Source: a virus. From it: a stretch of 50,667 bases of DNA. The notes under the pieces were generated by a model. It searched no databases. It was not told the origin of the DNA and saw nothing but the letters and a program-made list of their open reading frames with translations. Position 1 is the stretch's first letter, and every line of letters begins with the position of its first letter. The translations under genes were made by a program, and so were the position numbers. Shown one piece after another: positions 3,072 through 15,188 of this stretch. The stretch is from positions 1-50,667 of IMG/VR virus record IMGVR_UViG_3300005731_000081, one strand, 5' to 3'.

Positions 3072-4102
3072 TGAGCAAGAAAAAGAAATTAATAAATTTT
3101 AGCGATGAAAAAGCTATTCAGAAAGAGTTTGGAAAGGTTATATCTGATGGCACAGAGCTAATAGCTTCAAAACAAAACCTGAAGGCGTTAACTGTTAGCC
3201 CCGCGATTGATTTGGCGTTGAATGGGGGGCTTTTAGAGGGTAGCTGGACAATTATTAGTGGAGATCCTAAAACTGGCAAAAGTACAAGTTGTCTACAGGT
3301 TTGTAAAAATGCCCAAGACGAAGGTCGGCCAGTAATATACATTGATGCAGAAAGTAGGCTCAAGACTTACAACTTGATTGGGATTGAAGGTTTAGATTTA
3401 GAAAAAATACAGATCGTGCATGGGCCAGATGATGGCGAACAGCTATCAGCAGAAGACTTCTTAAAGATATGTGAGTCCATGATTAAGATGCCAAAAAATA
3501 AAGGCGCTGTATGTGTCATTGACTCTTGCTCTTCTTTAGTTCCGAGGGCTGAACTCGATGAAGACCCATCTGGATCAATTCGTGCTAGTTTACCCAAGCT
3601 TCTATCTCACTGGATTAAAAAGAACTCTCAAACGGTTGTAAAGAATAGAATCATTGTATTGATTATTACTCATTACATTACCAATACCAGTGGTTGGGGA
3701 AAGCAAAAGATACCAGACTGCGGAGTCATGGTACAATATCAGGCTGACACTAGAATGGATATCGCAAAGATTGAAAGCTGGGAAGAGAGTAGTAAAAAAA
3801 TAGGGCAGTTAGTTCACTGGAAGGTTAGCTGCTCCAGCATGGGAGCTTCTGGTACAGAGTGCGTTAGTCATATTAAATTTGGAAAAGGAATAGACAAGAA
3901 CAAGGAAATCATAGAATTAGCTGAGTCATTTTCTATTGTTGAAAAATCCGGAGCTTGGTATTCTCTAGACTTCCTAGCTGGCACTGATGAATTTGAGGAA
4001 GCTCCAAAGTTTCACGGACAAGAAAATCTTTACAAATTTCTTGAATCCCGACCGGACGTTTTTAAATTAGTTTTAGATAAGGTTCAGAGTGTTTTAGAAT
4101 GA
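3071..4102 (+). CDS. RecA/UvsX-like recombinase
   Basis: 343-residue RecA-superfamily ATPase expected to form filaments on single-stranded DNA and drive strand exchange in phage recombination and recombination-dependent replication. Walker A is GDPKTGKST (64-72), preceded by the family's LNGGLLEGSW stretch; a conserved acidic segment YIDAES and the Walker B-like VCVIDSCSSL follow. A later ITHYITN is in the place of the strand that senses ATP state. Length is close to T4 UvsX and bacterial RecA. The neighbours, a small nuclease and a possible UvsY-like protein, fit a recombination module. Whether it is closer to RecA or UvsX cannot be settled by eye. Confidence 0.85.
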   Translation: MSKKKKLINFSDEKAIQKEFGKVISDGTELIASKQNLKALTVSPAIDLALNGGLLEGSWTIISGDPKTGKSTSCLQVCKNAQDEGRPVIYIDAESRLKTYNLIGIEGLDLEKIQIVHGPDDGEQLSAEDFLKICESMIKMPKNKGAVCVIDSCSSLVPRAELDEDPSGSIRASLPKLLSHWIKKNSQTVVKNRIIVLIITHYITNTSGWGKQKIPDCGVMVQYQADTRMDIAKIESWEESSKKIGQLVHWKVSCSSMGASGTECVSHIKFGKGIDKNKEIIELAESFSIVEKSGAWYSLDFLAGTDEFEEAPKFHGQENLYKFLESRPDVFKLVLDKVQSVLE

Positions 4103-4521
4103 TCTACGTAACTGGTTTTGACGGTAAAGATCATAAGTTCAACTACTCTAAAAATAAATCAAGAAGGTCAAGGTCTAACAAGTCCTCTTATCATAAAGAG
4201 GCAAGACTTTTAATATCTAGCTATTTTAATAACTATTCAATCTACGAGGAGGTAACTCTTCCCGGATCTAAAAAAGTAAGTCGCAACTCTCTTCTTTATG
4301 CTGACTTTTATATACCTGAAGTAGCTTTGATTGTTGAGGTTCATGGAGAACAACACTATACCTATAGTCACTTCTTTCATAAGAACAAGTACAACTTTTT
4401 TAAGTCCAAAAATAGAGACCGCGACAAAATTGAATGGTGTGAATTAAACGATATAGATATTCTTATCCTACCATACAACGAAAGAGATAAATGGAAAAGT
4501 ATGATTATGCAGAAAAGATAA
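4099..4521 (+). CDS. Small Vsr/DUF559-like endonuclease
   Basis: 140 residues with the core of a PD-(D/E)XK or Vsr-like nuclease: KEARLL with Glu34 in an opening helix, ADFYIPE with Asp69, then IVEVHGEQH with Glu80, Glu84 and His86, and NRDRDKIEW with acidic residues around 107-109, ending in the strand DILILPY. This order (E, D, E, H, D) resembles very-short-patch repair and homing nucleases of the EDxHD group as well as DUF559-type proteins. Its start overlaps the recombinase stop (ATGA), so it may process recombination intermediates. A nick- or junction-cleaving role is inference. It shares its core pattern with the product of the gene at 20988-21794. Confidence 0.7.
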   Translation: MIYVTGFDGKDHKFNYSKNKSRRSRSNKSSYHKEARLLISSYFNNYSIYEEVTLPGSKKVSRNSLLYADFYIPEVALIVEVHGEQHYTYSHFFHKNKYNFFKSKNRDRDKIEWCELNDIDILILPYNERDKWKSMIMQKR

Positions 4522-5425: not shown

Positions 5426-7930
5426 ATGCCAAAAGAAAGTGCTTTGAAAAATATTGCCTCTGAAAGAGCTGTTCTGGCTGGTATATTTAGCCACGGTATA
5501 GACTGTTTCATTGATGTTGAGATGTTGATTGATGAAGACACTTTTACTCTAGACCATAATAAGGTTTTATTTAAGTGCGTAGAAGACGCGGTTAAGAAAA
5601 GTGAAAAAATTGGTTTCACTGAAATACTTTCATCAGCAAAGAGTTTAGGACTTAGCGAATACATCGAACGCCAAGACGTAATGCAACATGTCAACGGGGT
5701 AATAAATACACCTATCGACATAGAAAACGTTAGGCTTCATGCGGCTAAAATAAGAAGACTTCAATTTGCTAGAAATGTCCAGAATGAGCTAAGAGATATT
5801 TATAGGGGGTTGGATGATATTTCTGGAGACGAAAGCATTACAGAAATTTTATCCATAGCAGAAAAACCCATTCAGGATATCTGCATGTCATATACTCGTG
5901 AAGACAATAACACCCCGACTAAACTGGGTGATTCACTGGAAGAATATATCGAGCATGTGAAAAACAATAAAGCTCAGAGTATTGGACTATCTACCGGGTT
6001 TTCAATTTACGACAAGGCTATCGGTGGTGGTCTTAGGCGAAAGTGTGTTGACTTGATAGCCGCAAGGCCAAAAGCTCTTCGTGACGGATCTTTGGTATAT
6101 AAGTCTACCGGCCCAGTAAAAATTGAAGACGTTATGGTTGGTGATAAAGTGCTTCATCCGACAAAGGGCGAGACAACCGTAACAGAGGTTTGGCCACACA
6201 AGGGCGTTGACATATATCGAATATCTTTTAAAGATGGTGATTTTGTCGATTGTTGCGAGGACCATATTTGGCATGTTAACTTAATGTACGGAGGTCATAA
6301 GGAGCATTTAAAAACCACAAAGGAATTGATTGATGATATCACATATGGTAATCAAGGTCGATCCAAATGGTCTGTCCCACTTCCTGACCCTGTCGAGTTT
6401 GAGCAGCAGGATGTTCCTATAGACCCATATGCTTTGGGAGTTCTTTTAGGTGACGGGTCTGTAGGTAATAACACTTGCGTTTATCACACAGCTGACGAAG
6501 AAATTCACACCTACATGAGTTCGTATGCAGAATCTTTAGGATTGGATATAAAGATTGATAGACATGTAGAAGGAAATAAATGCAATTCATATAGGATTAA
6601 CTCATTTCAAGACCAACTACGTGAGTCTGGAATCTTTGGGCATAATTGTTACAGCAAATTTGTGCCAAAAAAATACATATACAACACACAAGAAGTAAGA
6701 TTGGCTGTTTTAGCCGGTTTGCTAGATACTGACGGTGATTGTACTATTGATAGGAGAACCAATAAATCAAGAACCAGATTTGGATCAGTATCTTTACAAT
6801 TATGTGAAGACGTAAAAGAGATCGTACAATCGCTTGGTGGGCTTTGCTCAATTAACAAATGTTCTACAAAATGTAACGGTAGGAGTTTCCAGTCATACAG
6901 GTGTGAGATTAGGCTTCCAGAAGGTGTGAATCCGTTCAGGCTTAAAAGAAAGAAGGATGCATTTACTAAAAGAACAAATAGCTTAACGAAAAGGGTAATA
7001 TCCAGCATAGAAAAAGTAGGCAATGATAATGCCAGATGTTTAACTTTATCTGAAAATGATGGTTTGTTTATGACAGACAACTATGTCGTAACGCACAATA
7101 CTGGGAAGTCATTACTCGCTGATGAGGTGGCTATGCACGTCTCTAAAGAATTGAAGACTCCTGTCTTAATGTTGGATACAGAGATGGGCAAGGAAGATCA
7201 TTGGAATAGAATTTTAGCAAATATTAGCGGTGTAGAAATTAATGATATAGCTACCGGGGCATTTGCTGACGATCCAGATAAAATTGACAAAGTTAACCAA
7301 GCGGTACAAGAAATAAATGATATACCATATGAGTATATTAGCATCGCCGGTAAACCATTTGAAGAAACGATTTCTATTGCTAGAAGGTGGATTCTTAAAA
7401 ATGTTGGATATGACGAGAACGGTAGACTTAATGATTGTTTAATAATCTATGACTACTTAAAGTTAATGAGCGCGGCTAGTATTAGCAGCAACCTAGCCGA
7501 GTTTCAAGTTCTTGGTTTCCAGATAACACAGCTACATAACTTCTGTGTTGAACACGACGTCGCCTGTTTGGCTTTTGTGCAGCTAAATAGAGATGGTGAG
7601 ACAAAGGAGAGTACCGATGTTGTAAGTGGCTCAGATAGGCTTGTGTGGCTTTGTACGAGTTTCTCAATTTTCAAAAACAAGACTGAGGACGAGAAGGCTG
7701 CTGACGGCATTCTAAATGGTGACAAAAAATTAATACCAATCGTATCTCGTCACGGTCCCGGAATGGAAGATGAGGGATACATATGTTTAAAAATGGATGG
7801 AGAATTTGCTAGAGTCACAGAATTAGGAACAATACGGGAGATAAATAAAAATGCTAAAGACGAATACAAAGGAATACCAGACGCAGAAGATGCTTCAGCT
7901 GAAGATGAAGCTGATGACCCGAATTTCTGA
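5426..7930 (+). CDS. dnaB: Replicative DnaB-like helicase interrupted by an intein
   Basis: 834-residue precursor. Residues 1-216 hold a DnaB N-terminal helical domain (SERAVLAGIF, then helices up to about 150) and the start of the RecA-fold motor (GLSTGFSIYDKAIGGGLRR, IAARPK). Residues 217-558 are an intein, after which the P-loop resumes at Thr559 as TGKSLLADE. The spliced helicase is 492 residues and restores Walker A ARPKTGKS. Later motor motifs include a Walker B region CLIIYDYLKLM and an H3/H4-like CLAFVQLNRDGE with SGSDRLVWL. It would unwind the fork for the split DNA polymerase, with the primase gene immediately downstream. Without splicing the ATP site is broken, so intein removal must be required for function. 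Confidence 0.92.
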   Translation: MPKESALKNIASERAVLAGIFSHGIDCFIDVEMLIDEDTFTLDHNKVLFKCVEDAVKKSEKIGFTEILSSAKSLGLSEYIERQDVMQHVNGVINTPIDIENVRLHAAKIRRLQFARNVQNELRDIYRGLDDISGDESITEILSIAEKPIQDICMSYTREDNNTPTKLGDSLEEYIEHVKNNKAQSIGLSTGFSIYDKAIGGGLRRKCVDLIAARPKALRDGSLVYKSTGPVKIEDVMVGDKVLHPTKGETTVTEVWPHKGVDIYRISFKDGDFVDCCEDHIWHVNLMYGGHKEHLKTTKELIDDITYGNQGRSKWSVPLPDPVEFEQQDVPIDPYALGVLLGDGSVGNNTCVYHTADEEIHTYMSSYAESLGLDIKIDRHVEGNKCNSYRINSFQDQLRESGIFGHNCYSKFVPKKYIYNTQEVRLAVLAGLLDTDGDCTIDRRTNKSRTRFGSVSLQLCEDVKEIVQSLGGLCSINKCSTKCNGRSFQSYRCEIRLPEGVNPFRLKRKKDAFTKRTNSLTKRVISSIEKVGNDNARCLTLSENDGLFMTDNYVVTHNTGKSLLADEVAMHVSKELKTPVLMLDTEMGKEDHWNRILANISGVEINDIATGAFADDPDKIDKVNQAVQEINDIPYEYISIAGKPFEETISIARRWILKNVGYDENGRLNDCLIIYDYLKLMSAASISSNLAEFQVLGFQITQLHNFCVEHDVACLAFVQLNRDGETKESTDVVSGSDRLVWLCTSFSIFKNKTEDEKAADGILNGDKKLIPIVSRHGPGMEDEGYICLKMDGEFARVTELGTIREINKNAKDEYKGIPDAEDASAEDEADDPNF
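6074..7099 (+). other. Class 3 intein with LAGLIDADG homing endonuclease domain
   Basis: 342-residue protein intron within the helicase P-loop, between Lys216 and Thr559. Its first residue is Ala, not Cys or Ser (ALRDGSLV). The three residues that define class 3 inteins are all present in the expected blocks: Trp282 two residues after the block B His280 (EDHIWH), Cys538 at the block F position normally held by Asp (ARCLTL), and Thr556 in block G (VVTHN). The end is His557-Asn558 with Thr559 as the +1 residue. Two LAGLIDADG motifs, ALGVLLGDG (336-344) and LAGLLDTDG (429-437), keep both acidic residues, so the endonuclease looks intact and the element may still be mobile. Boundaries are by comparison with known DnaB inteins. 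Confidence 0.88.
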
Positions 7931-11068: not shown

Positions 11069-12928
11069 ATGTTAGCCTCTTTGAGAAATCATTCACATTA
11101 CTCTTTGTTGTTATCAACTTCTAAACCTAAGCAAGTTGTAGACAAATGTGTAAAATCCGGCTATGAATGTGTCGGGTTGACAGACTTAACCACTGTTAGC
11201 GGATGTGTAAACTTTTTAAAATCATGCAAAGATAAAGGGGTAAAGCCCGTTATCGGGTCAGAGATTAAACTTAGTTGCGGAGGTAGTCTTACATTAATTT
11301 GCAAAAATAACGAATCTTGGCGGCAGTTGCTAATACTAATATCGCTATGTAATGATCCAGAAAATTATAACGAGCATCCAGAGATAAGCTATGACAAGTT
11401 AACAGACATGGTCTCTCCTGACAATTTCATTGTAATTGATGGGTACATAGGCTCACGCTTATTTTATAAGTTATTTACATCTCCGTCAAGCGCAGTGTAT
11501 TCAGCTGACGATGATGAAGTTAATGGTTTCTTGATTGATAACTGGCTAGAAGAGGCTAATGAGTACGTGAAAGAGTCTAAAGGCTTTTTCAATAGTTACT
11601 ATCTAGAAATCAATAATCAAGTTTTTGACACAATGCCAGCAATCAACATAATGTCTGAATGTGTGAAACAGGTTGATGTTGATAAATCGCTAAGTATTTA
11701 TGACACATGTAGCTACTATTGCAACGAGAGTGATTCAATAGACCATCGCGTTCTTCTATGCGTGCAGCTAAAAACAACGCTTAAGAAATTAGCACTACAA
11801 ATAGATAGTGGCGAAAAGCAAGACCTTGTCAAGTTTATTAGAAGTAGCCAATTCAATATTAAAACAGTGGAAGAGTTAGAGGGTTTATACTCCGAAGACA
11901 GCCATGTGTTTAAAAATATGGAGTCACTCATTAGTCAATGTGAGGATGTTTCTATTTTATCCAAGCCAAGACTGCCAAAGTTTCAATGCCCTCAAGGACT
12001 CAACGAAAACGATTATCTCAAACAGTTATGCCGTGATGGATGGGCTAAATTTCTAAACGGTAAAATAGACAAGAGTCAGGTAGAAACTTATAAAGACAGA
12101 GTTTTAAAAGAGCTTGGGGTTATCGAGAAAGCTGATTTAGCTGGTTACTTCTTAATTGTGCAGGATTATGTAAACCACTTTAAAAACAAAGGGTGTTTAA
12201 TAGGTCCGGGACGTGGAAGTGGTGGTGGATCACTAGTATGCTTTCTGACTGGTATAACAAGCGTTGACCCCATTAAATACGGATTAATCTTTGAGCGGTT
12301 TTATAACGAGGGGCGAAATACAGAGGATCATATTTCACTACCTGATATCGACGTTGACTTTCCACCCGACTGGCGTGAGAAAGTTATTCAATATTTAAAA
12401 GATAAATATGGCGGGAATAAAGTTTGTCAGATGCTAACGTTTGGTAGACTTGCTGGACGATCTATCATTAAAGAGGTTTTACGTGTAAACGAAGCCTGCT
12501 CTTTTGAAGAGATGAATGAAATAACCAAGAAGATACCAAACCAAGCTGATATTTCTGACCTTCTTGAAGAAATGGAGAATCCATCTGTTATCAGGTGGGC
12601 TCTTGAAAATGACAGAGATGCTTTATCAGACTATTGCTACTTAGATGACGACGGAAAGCTATCTGGTGATCACGCTAAGGTCTTTGATCAAGCTATGAGG
12701 ATGGAGGGTATTTTTAAGACTCAAGGAAAACATGCTGCTGGAGTTGTCATCGCTTCAGATCCTTTAGACGAAGTTTGTCCTATGGTCAAGGCGTCTAGAA
12801 ATAACGATAAGATAGCGGGGCTTGAAATGGGAGATTTAGAAGCCATCGGCTGTGTTAAGTTTGATATTCTAGGTGTTTCAATTTTAAAAAAAATATCTGA
12901 AACCGTTGAGGAAATAAATAATGACTAA
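11069..12928 (+). CDS. dnaE: DNA polymerase III alpha, N-terminal part (PHP, palm)
   Basis: 619 residues covering the PHP domain, palm and thumb of a DnaE-type replicative polymerase, and then a stop. The PHP start LRNHSHYSLL keeps HxH, but the usual GLTDH reads GLTDL and other ligands look lost. GPGRGSGGGSLVCFLTGIT is the conserved nucleotide-binding loop. Catalytic aspartates are Asp426 and Asp428 (PDIDVDF) and Asp599 (VKFDILG). Then GKHAAGVVIA is the usual pre-catalytic segment. The chain ends about 20 residues after Asp599 in a linker, where intact DnaE continues into the fingers. The missing fingers, beta-binding and OB domains are encoded at 13644-15188. No intein sequence is present, so the halves must work as two chains. 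Confidence 0.92.
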   Translation: MLASLRNHSHYSLLLSTSKPKQVVDKCVKSGYECVGLTDLTTVSGCVNFLKSCKDKGVKPVIGSEIKLSCGGSLTLICKNNESWRQLLILISLCNDPENYNEHPEISYDKLTDMVSPDNFIVIDGYIGSRLFYKLFTSPSSAVYSADDDEVNGFLIDNWLEEANEYVKESKGFFNSYYLEINNQVFDTMPAINIMSECVKQVDVDKSLSIYDTCSYYCNESDSIDHRVLLCVQLKTTLKKLALQIDSGEKQDLVKFIRSSQFNIKTVEELEGLYSEDSHVFKNMESLISQCEDVSILSKPRLPKFQCPQGLNENDYLKQLCRDGWAKFLNGKIDKSQVETYKDRVLKELGVIEKADLAGYFLIVQDYVNHFKNKGCLIGPGRGSGGGSLVCFLTGITSVDPIKYGLIFERFYNEGRNTEDHISLPDIDVDFPPDWREKVIQYLKDKYGGNKVCQMLTFGRLAGRSIIKEVLRVNEACSFEEMNEITKKIPNQADISDLLEEMENPSVIRWALENDRDALSDYCYLDDDGKLSGDHAKVFDQAMRMEGIFKTQGKHAAGVVIASDPLDEVCPMVKASRNNDKIAGLEMGDLEAIGCVKFDILGVSILKKISETVEEINND

Positions 12929-12961: not shown

Positions 12962-13654
12962 ATGAATTATCGTGATTACATTGTGTATGACTTTGAGACA
13001 ACTAGTCCTAACCCATTGACAACGCAACCTGTTCAAATTGCTGCCGTTGTCGTCCACGGTCGAAAGTTAGAAATAAAAAAAGGGTCTCAATTTGAATCTT
13101 TAATGAAACCATATTTAACGCAGGAGGAGTGTGATAAGCATGGCGTGGACATGTTAGAGGACGGGGCTGTGGCTGTTCATGGAAAAACGGCGGAGATGTT
13201 AGCAGAGGCACCGTCTACAGAGGCTGTTTGGAAGAACTTTACAGAGTACGTTAAGCAATATAACTTTAAAAGTAGTAATTTTACAGCCCCTATTGCTGTG
13301 GGTTATAACATAACAAACTTTGATAACCCCATCGTTGATCGACTTTGTACAAAAGATCCGTACAATTTTGGACCAATAGATAAGAAGGGTAGACAGGATG
13401 TGTTTAACAATATTCACAGTTTAGATATGCTAGATTTTATGTTTACCATGTTTGAAAATAACAAAGAGGTTCATTCTCTGTCTGCTGATAATCTGATTCG
13501 TGGGCACATGGGGTATTCTAAAGGCCGGGCTCACGACGCTATGTCTGACGTTATGATGACTGCTGAATTGTTTTGCAAAATGATGCGCATGCTTAGAACT
13601 CTTGCATCCAGAAAAAACTTCCGAAACGCATTTGGAGAACAAGATGAAGATTGA
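12962..13654 (+). CDS. DEDDh 3'-5' exonuclease, ExoI/DnaQ-like
   Basis: 230-residue exonuclease, the likely proofreading or ssDNA-degrading partner of the polymerase. Catalytic residues are Asp10 and Glu12 (YDFETTSP), Asp121 (NFDNPI), His191 and Asp196 (AHDAMSD). Details such as QIAAVVV, AVHGKT, VGYNITNFDNPI and HDAMSDVMMT resemble the nuclease domain of E. coli exonuclease I (SbcB) more than short DnaQ. The SH3-like and C-terminal domains of ExoI are absent. An AGAGGAAA ribosome site precedes the ATG. It sits between the two DnaE gene halves and overlaps the second by 11 bases, implying co-expression and probably a shared complex. Confidence 0.9.
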   Translation: MNYRDYIVYDFETTSPNPLTTQPVQIAAVVVHGRKLEIKKGSQFESLMKPYLTQEECDKHGVDMLEDGAVAVHGKTAEMLAEAPSTEAVWKNFTEYVKQYNFKSSNFTAPIAVGYNITNFDNPIVDRLCTKDPYNFGPIDKKGRQDVFNNIHSLDMLDFMFTMFENNKEVHSLSADNLIRGHMGYSKGRAHDAMSDVMMTAELFCKMMRMLRTLASRKNFRNAFGEQDED

Positions 13655-15188
13655 AGACCTTGATTTTGAAGATTCGCAAGTTTGGGATATGTTATCAGAA
13701 GGTCGTGTTAAGGGCTGCTTTCAGATTGAGGGCTACCTTGGTAAAACTTGGTGTCAAAGACTTAAACCAAGGAATATTGTAGAACTAGCGGCTGTAATCA
13801 GCTTGATTAGACCGGGTTGTGTTTCTGCTAAAGTTAATGGCAAGACGATGACAGAAAGATATGCTGACAGGAAAGCTGGCACAGAAGATGTAGACTACAT
13901 GCATGAATCAATTGAGGATATATTAAAAGAAACTTACGGCGTTATCGTTTACCAAGAGCAGGCGATGCAAATTGCCGAGAAGATGGCCGGATTCTCTCTA
14001 AAAGAAGCTGATAACTTAAGGAAGGCTATTGGTAAAAAAGACGCAAATTTAATGGGTAAGGTTCGCTCTAATTTTATTAGAGGGTCTATAAACAAAGGTA
14101 TTGATGAATCAAAAGCTCAAGAAGTCTTCGATATCATTCAAGAGAGTCAAAGGTATAGTTTTAATAAATCTCACGCTGTTGGATACGCACAAGTTACATA
14201 TTGGTCTGCGTGGTTAAAGCGGCATTACATAGATAAGTATTTTAAGTTTTGGCTACGCAACTCCGACGACAAGCAAGATACTGATACTGAGCGTCACCAA
14301 TTGATAATGGCTGCTAAAATAGATGGTGTGGAGGTTGTAGGCCCATCTATTAAGTACCCATTTGAAAACTTTACTAAACAAGAGGGGAAGATATTTTTTG
14401 GAGCTTGTAACGTAAAGAGTGTTGGTAAAGCCCATCTAGACAAATATCTTAAACTAATATCAGAATGGGATAGGCCGCTAACTTGGCTTGAGTTGGTTAC
14501 TATCATTTTGCCAAACATAAATAAAAGATCTGTAGAAAATCTAATAAAGGTTGGCTTCTTTAGTGGGTTGGGAAAATCAAGAAGTAGCATGCTTCATGAA
14601 TTCTCTTGCGTTAAACAACTAACTAAAGTAGAGCTTACTCATTTATGTGAGGGTGTTGATGAGCAAAATAACCAGAATACACTACTTGATCATATAAAAC
14701 TTTTCGCGGCTAAAGGTGTGAAGAAGGATGGCGGGTATATATCTAGTGTAACAAGACAATTAAAAGTTGACGAAATCATATCTAGATTGGAAAATCCGGG
14801 ACGAGAACTGTCTGACAATCCAGCCATGTACGCTAAGATGGAAGAGAAGCTCTTAGGTTGCTCCGTAACGTCTTCTGAGTTAGATGCTTGCGCCGACGCC
14901 TCACATGCTGACAGTACGTGTGTGGAGGTGTCAGACGGCAAGAAAGGTAAATGCACAATAGCCTGCGTGATAAAAAAGGTTATGGAACACACAACAAAGA
15001 ATGATGAAACGATGGCTTTTATAGCTGTTGAAGATAATTCGGGCGAATTAGAAGATATTGTCATTTTTCCTGACGTATATAGCCAACACAGGGATACAAT
15101 ATATAATGAATCAACGGTCTTAATAACTGGTGAGACAAAGCATTCAAAAAGAAAGTCTTTTATAGTTGATAACATGTTTAGCATTTAG
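13644..15188 (+). CDS. dnaE: DNA polymerase III alpha, C-terminal part (fingers, OB)
   Basis: 514 residues that continue the DnaE sequence where the gene at 11069 stops. IEDLDFEDSQVWDMLSEG and GCFQIEG match the first fingers segment of DnaE; LIRPG, MTERYADR, GVIVYQEQAMQIAEKMAGF and FNKSHAVGYA (His177) are conserved fingers motifs that hold incoming nucleotide and template. The C-terminal 80 residues (CTIACVIKKV to FIVDNMF) form the OB-fold of bacterial alpha subunits. I chose the ATG at 13644, which has a GGAGAA site, over a TTG at 13602 that lies deeper in the exonuclease gene. Alone it has no catalytic aspartates, so it must pair with the N-terminal chain. Confidence 0.9.
   Translation: MKIEDLDFEDSQVWDMLSEGRVKGCFQIEGYLGKTWCQRLKPRNIVELAAVISLIRPGCVSAKVNGKTMTERYADRKAGTEDVDYMHESIEDILKETYGVIVYQEQAMQIAEKMAGFSLKEADNLRKAIGKKDANLMGKVRSNFIRGSINKGIDESKAQEVFDIIQESQRYSFNKSHAVGYAQVTYWSAWLKRHYIDKYFKFWLRNSDDKQDTDTERHQLIMAAKIDGVEVVGPSIKYPFENFTKQEGKIFFGACNVKSVGKAHLDKYLKLISEWDRPLTWLELVTIILPNINKRSVENLIKVGFFSGLGKSRSSMLHEFSCVKQLTKVELTHLCEGVDEQNNQNTLLDHIKLFAAKGVKKDGGYISSVTRQLKVDEIISRLENPGRELSDNPAMYAKMEEKLLGCSVTSSELDACADASHADSTCVEVSDGKKGKCTIACVIKKVMEHTTKNDETMAFIAVEDNSGELEDIVIFPDVYSQHRDTIYNESTVLITGETKHSKRKSFIVDNMFSI

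Follow-up and report, generated by a model that had tools for sequence, protein, structure and literature searches.

What interrupts the Walker A motif of a phage replicative helicase, could it splice itself out and could it still move between genomes? The locus lies in a 50,667-base virus contig (the window, i.e. the whole stretch of DNA analysed here), where the open reading frame at positions 5426-7930 (+ strand) reads through 834 codons with no stops. The frame is assigned to phrog_19, and Pfam matches are found at both ends of the precursor (DnaB, residues 7-95, and DnaB_C, residues 559-729), identifying a DnaB-like helicase, while LAGLIDADG_3 and Hom_end match its middle. The N-extein (216 aa, 5426-6073) ends ...VDLIAARPK inside the Walker A motif and the C-extein (276 aa plus stop, 7100-7930) starts Thr+1-Gly-Lys-Ser. 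Between them, in frame, lies a segment of 1026 nt, or 342 aa (6074-7099, precursor residues 217-558), running from Ala1 to Asn342, so that the split motif reads ...VDLIAARPK/ALRDGSLVY ... DNYVVTHN/TGKSLLADE, where the slash, here and below, marks an insertion point or intein end. The segment thus falls between residues 4 and 5 of the P-loop (ARPK/TGKS). Among viral contigs, many close relatives lack the insert while keeping frame and extein residues intact; their empty-site junctions mostly read ARPKTGKS, ARPKVGKS or ARPKCGKS, and ARPKEGKS once. Because insert-free homologues read ARPK followed by Thr, Val or Cys and then GKS, the boundaries are exact at both ends and are not a chance feature of the frame, and because these homologues keep frame and extein residues, the insertion is seamless and in frame. 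The original prediction of a 342-residue P-loop insert, starting with Ala and ending His-Asn before a Thr, was therefore exact. An intron or riboswitch was ruled out, Rfam matches in the window being nil. As detailed below, we are highly confident that this phage DnaB-family helicase carries, within its Walker A motif, a class 3 intein that is full-length and includes a LAGLIDADG homing endonuclease.

We followed the class definitions of PMC3196547 and PMC6195587, class 3 being defined by a position 1 without a nucleophile together with Trp at B12, Cys at F4 and Thr at G5 (the WCT set; PMC3196547). Block A (6074-6112, + strand as for all blocks and motifs below) starts with Ala1, i.e. not Cys, Ser or Thr, and this first residue is fixed by the empty-site homologues. 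Block B (DGDFVDCCEDHIWHV, 6233-6277) holds His64 (B10, 6263-6265) and Trp66 (B12, 6269-6271), block F (NARCLTLSENDGLFMTD, 7028-7078) holds Cys322 (F4, 7037-7039), the predicted initiating nucleophile, and block G (NYVVTHN, 7079-7099) holds Thr340 (G5), His341 and the terminal Asn342. Trp66, Cys322 and Thr340 correspond to precursor residues Trp282, Cys538 and Thr556, which had been predicted to lie in blocks B, F and G; their columns indeed agree with those of 15 other phage inteins and of the solved structures 6rix and 6bs8. In the alignment of the window intein with these 15 (hosts DnaB, terminase, SNF2, UvrD, PhoH and Cas4), H64, W66, C322, T340, H341 and N342 are invariant across all 16 sequences. 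Thus, with Thr+1, the insert has the B10 His, the penultimate His, the C-terminal Asn and a Ser, Thr or Cys at +1. A profile built from the 16-intein alignment was used to search the PDB, where its best matches were 6rix/6riy (M. chimaera DnaB1), 6bs8 (M. smegmatis DnaBi1) and 6riz, which is gp41-1 engineered to WCT, i.e. to class 3. The HMM alignment to the solved class 3 inteins brings the splicing blocks into register and the WCT residues into the same columns.

In the intein tree, class 3-type inteins stand apart from class 1 phage inteins (split 100/100), with an outgroup of just five class 1 rows, all of one type, and with class 2 rows absent. The class signature is complete, and alignment and tree both place the insert among class 3 inteins, as had been proposed. 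Every sequence feature of the class that could be checked is present, which supports its assignment as a class 3 intein and predicts that it splices. Splicing as in class 2, in which Thr+1 would itself attack the N-terminal junction, would likewise begin from a start without a nucleophile; class 2 has however been reported solely from KlbA (PMC3196547) and lacks the WCT set, whereas the host here is DnaB, the set is complete and the tree position is among class 3 inteins. We give this reading almost no chance.

Ala at position 1 would disable a class 1 intein, and the element could accordingly be imagined as splicing-dead or cleavage-only, having lost its position-1 nucleophile like the Arthrobacter Arth_1007 pseudogene. 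This is very improbable: Cys F4 and His B10, both missing in Arth_1007 (PMC3196547), are present here, the helicase frame is intact on either side of the intein, +1 Thr or Cys, His and Asn are found in all members examined, and dN/dS between the window and its relative L002 is below 1. For this pair, whose inteins are 98% identical, the Nei-Gojobori method gives an intein dN of 0.010 and a dS of 0.038, with no stops, a low dN relative to dS that fits a functional splicing element; dS is saturated in nearly all except such near-identical comparisons, and we make no selection claim for distant pairs.

In class 3 splicing of this precursor, Cys322 would directly attack the Lys(-1)-Ala1 bond, the N-extein would then be transferred to Thr+1, and cyclisation of Asn342 followed by an O-N acyl shift would restore ARPKTGKS. 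In co-infecting phages whose helicase gene is free of the intein, the endonuclease would cut at the ARPK/TGKS site, and repair would copy the intein into the cut gene, the +1 Thr or Cys codon being carried along. We infer this splicing chemistry, the DNA cutting and homing, and a dependence of the ATPase on splicing. The earlier statement on this point, that splicing must be complete, goes too far: ATPase activity needs spliced molecules, not every molecule spliced. Splicing out of the P-loop could plausibly also serve as an on/off switch. A redox or stress gate on splicing, of the type proposed for M. smegmatis DnaBi1, could hold back phage replication; it would come on top of the class 3 mechanism and not replace it. 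Block B contains Cys60 and Cys61, the former invariant in an eight-sequence alignment. However, the partner residue in DnaBi1, Cys48, which lies outside the splicing blocks (PMC6195587), has no equivalent cysteine here, and other phage class 3 inteins commonly have a Cys at B6. Gating of this kind is improbable for the window intein.

The endonuclease part has three recognisable motifs. Motif C (YALGVLLGDGS, 6428-6460) carries the acidic residue Asp127, motif D (YSKFVPK, 6650-6670) the invariant Lys195, and motif E (LAVLAGLLDTDG, 6701-6736, including LAGLLDTDG and matched by Pfam LAGLIDADG_3) the acidic residue Asp218. All three motifs align with PI-SceI, and both LAGLIDADG acidic residues are kept, as predicted, together with the motif D Lys. 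An AlphaFold2 model made from eight sequences has a mean pLDDT of 87.9 and a pTM of 0.89, and in the PDB it most resembles PI-SceI and other intein-endonucleases, followed by free LAGLIDADG endonucleases such as I-DmoI. The structure prediction suggested at the outset thus returned the fold of a PI-SceI-type intein-endonuclease, and in sequence and fold (acidic residues of motifs C and E, Lys of motif D, endonuclease fold) the domain has the attributes of a LAGLIDADG homing endonuclease.

Has the intein moved? Dozens of relatives of the window helicase have an uninterrupted site, and the window's own nearest relatives (L044/L006, L005 and L045) are all empty. On a tree of 46 helicases computed with the intein columns left out (six rows intein-bearing, 40 empty), the distribution of the intein takes five changes, at least four of them forced by well-supported branches, a count that does not distinguish gain from loss. 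L039 stands beside the empty L059 and L060; L004, L123 and L125 sit on long branches and their exact placement is unsure. Two syntenic plus/minus pairs were compared. In the first, L126 (the L004 contig) and L127, the N-exteins are 93% identical and about 8 kb align at about 83-86% nucleotide identity, with a clean 1026-bp insert separating the two contigs at this site. L039 and L060 repeat this picture at about 78-84% nucleotide identity. Intein and extein histories are also incongruent: the intein of L004 shares 67-71% identity with its counterparts in the window, L039 and L122, versus 40-43% for the exteins, while window and L122 are 68% identical in the intein and 63% in the extein. Together, the plus/minus alleles and this incongruence show that the intein moved, or was precisely lost, repeatedly, strengthening the original suggestion that it may be mobile.

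Synonymous identity offers a further clue. Within 40 codons of the insert, a flank width of our own choosing, it is 53% versus 71% further away for L126/L127, 36% versus 55% for L039/L060 and 41% versus 56% for L039/L059, two independent intein alleles lying behind these three comparisons. An equally large dip occurs in 0.5-5% of 217 comparable empty-empty pairs, and the dip is absent with more distant partners of L039. It fits co-conversion of the flanks during homing and is suggestive of it. Could the intein nevertheless splice and no longer home, its endonuclease being inactive and its scatter resulting from ancient presence and many precise losses? The change count on the tree is silent on gain versus loss, repeated precise loss could produce the scatter, and decay does happen in the clade, since the same-site intein of L203 has a degraded endonuclease. 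Against this, the window intein still has all three endonuclease motifs (C, D and E) and their two acidic residues, the inteins of distant helicases are more alike than their exteins, and the flank dip of the closest plus/minus pairs is rarely matched by empty-empty pairs. We consider such a loss of homing unlikely, and favour a class 3 intein that may still home; the shortened L203 intein matches what a late stage of the homing cycle would be expected to leave.

The residue following the insertion point bears on which alleles can receive the intein. Inteins of this kind have Ser, Thr or Cys at +1, and Val or Glu cannot support splicing. Val or Glu occupies the would-be +1 position in 22 of the 40 empty rows of the helicase tree, while all six intein-bearing rows have Thr or Cys. 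The chance probability of this pattern is about 0.014 on the assumption, not in fact valid, that rows are independent; L203, L219 and L243 were left out of the count, having been found with a pattern that requires Thr. Because +1 must be Ser, Thr or Cys, alleles with Val or Glu would accept a splicing intein only with their +1 codon replaced.

The exact register of the insertion differs from the one known in DnaB. M. smegmatis DnaBi1 occupies DnaB site b, where it separates the P-loop Lys from the Mg-binding Ser (GK/S; PMC6195587). The P-loop placement of the original prediction stands, but the insertion is three residues upstream of this known site, at ARPK/TGKS, and yet is still flanked by Lys and Thr; the intein is thus not a member of the DnaB-b allele group, whose insertions fall directly after the P-loop Lys, ahead of the Mg-binding Ser or Thr. 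Nine distinct inteins were found at sites of the ARPK/TGKS type (window, L004, L039, L122, L123, L125, L203, L219 and L243), and they form a single clade (100/99) nested in class 3. The one in L203 (ARPK/TGKT) is down to 274 aa, its LAGLIDADG motifs lost. The nearest neighbours of the clade are L022 and L032 (grouping 99/98, inner order not settled), and since both sit at GK/T, a shift from GK/T to the upstream Lys-Thr is a plausible origin of the ARPK/TGKS site. Phage DnaB-type helicases that we examined from outside the window's helicase family likewise carry their class 3 intein at GK/T. In the open-access literature, subscription papers and the InBase site list being outside this coverage, we found no DnaB intein at ARPK/TGKS, and the position may be undescribed. 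A scan with the clade for relatives in bacterial and archaeal genomes gave none. The 16-intein profile was too diverse for a collection scan.

We tentatively propose, while holding it somewhat doubtful, that the nine inteins (ARPK/TGK or ARPK/CGK, followed by Ser or Thr) are an undescribed DnaB allele group, derived from a class 3 intein at the canonical GK/T that moved nine nucleotides upstream to a Lys-Thr of the same motif, and that the variable host +1 residue (Thr, Val, Cys or Glu) makes alleles differ naturally in whether they can be spliced. If so, wild phages would supply a built-in resistance or co-conversion experiment. The idea that the x/TGKS or x/TGKT register is unique was dropped after a scan for the pattern VTHN/TGK, which found it also in class 1 inteins (GxxG/C...VTHN/TGKT) and in class 3 inteins of SNF2-type and terminase-type proteins. 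In the SNF2-type helicases L246 and L201, class 3-type inteins at MG/TGKT and VG/TGKT, respectively, apparently have Pro as first residue (PQPLYSKV and PQPLHAQV), which is unusual. At GK/T of a phage DnaB, the intein of L041 (1613-2680) and L042 (3501-4568) has Ser at position 1 and the full Trp-Cys-Thr set, and could in principle begin splicing by either route.

Class 3 inteins are abundant, with 1,701 in databases in 2020 (PMC7891396), and earlier publications describe phage members of the class whose endonuclease is active as well as members in the P-loop of DnaB (PMC5050341, PMC6195587). DnaBi1 of M. smegmatis and DnaB1 of M. chimaera (6bs8, 6rix) likewise have the class 3 residues and interrupt the P-loop of a DnaB-type helicase, but are mini-inteins of about 140 aa without an endonuclease, as against 342 aa with one in the window; the GK/S site of DnaBi1 is three residues downstream. 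Mycobacteriophage inteins (Bethlehem, Catera and others) are phage-borne and class 3, some with an active LAGLIDADG endonuclease (PMC3196547, PMC5050341), but occupy other host genes and sites (terminase and others), and those of Traft412 and ScoobyDoobyDoo are about 30% identical to the window's. The GK/T P-loop inteins of phage DnaB, TerL, SNF2 and UvrD (e.g. in Enterococcus, Vibrio, Eggerthella and Klebsiella phages) share with it the class 3 residues, a size of about 330-365 aa with endonuclease and, mostly, a Lys(-1)/Thr(+1) junction, but are about 24-35% identical and lie at GK/T instead of xK/TGK. Saccharomyces PI-SceI (the VMA intein), the top structural match, has the same two-domain layout and motifs C, D and E, but differs in class 1 splicing and host gene and is about 16% identical. 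With the window intein, phage replicative helicases gain a distinct class 3 lineage that is still full-length, and a second register of the DnaB P-loop now has class 3 inteins. The understanding of how inteins work stays unchanged, and the closely related plus/minus phage contigs are material for studying homing, co-conversion and the cost of a non-splicing +1 residue.

Some other genes were noted. Directly after a RecA-like gene, the window encodes a 140-aa frame (4099-4521, +) with an ...EVHGEQHYT... motif, which by eye is like small very-short-patch-repair-type nucleases or free-standing homing endonucleases and has no Pfam match. In the L039 contig, an HNH-type endonuclease-like frame, likewise recognised by eye (L369 121-537, ...WHIDHIKPLSSFNF...), lies just upstream of the polymerase gene and is missing from the same place in the window. 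The window's DNA polymerase III alpha is split in two genes (11069-12928 and 13602-15188, +), with no intein ends seen at the break, and between the halves lies a gene for a DnaQ-type 3'-5' exonuclease (12962-13654, Pfam RNase_T). This three-gene order of polymerase, exonuclease and polymerase is repeated in the L039 contig (L369 531-4582), and in the L004 contig, too, the first polymerase part stops early, with other genes after it.
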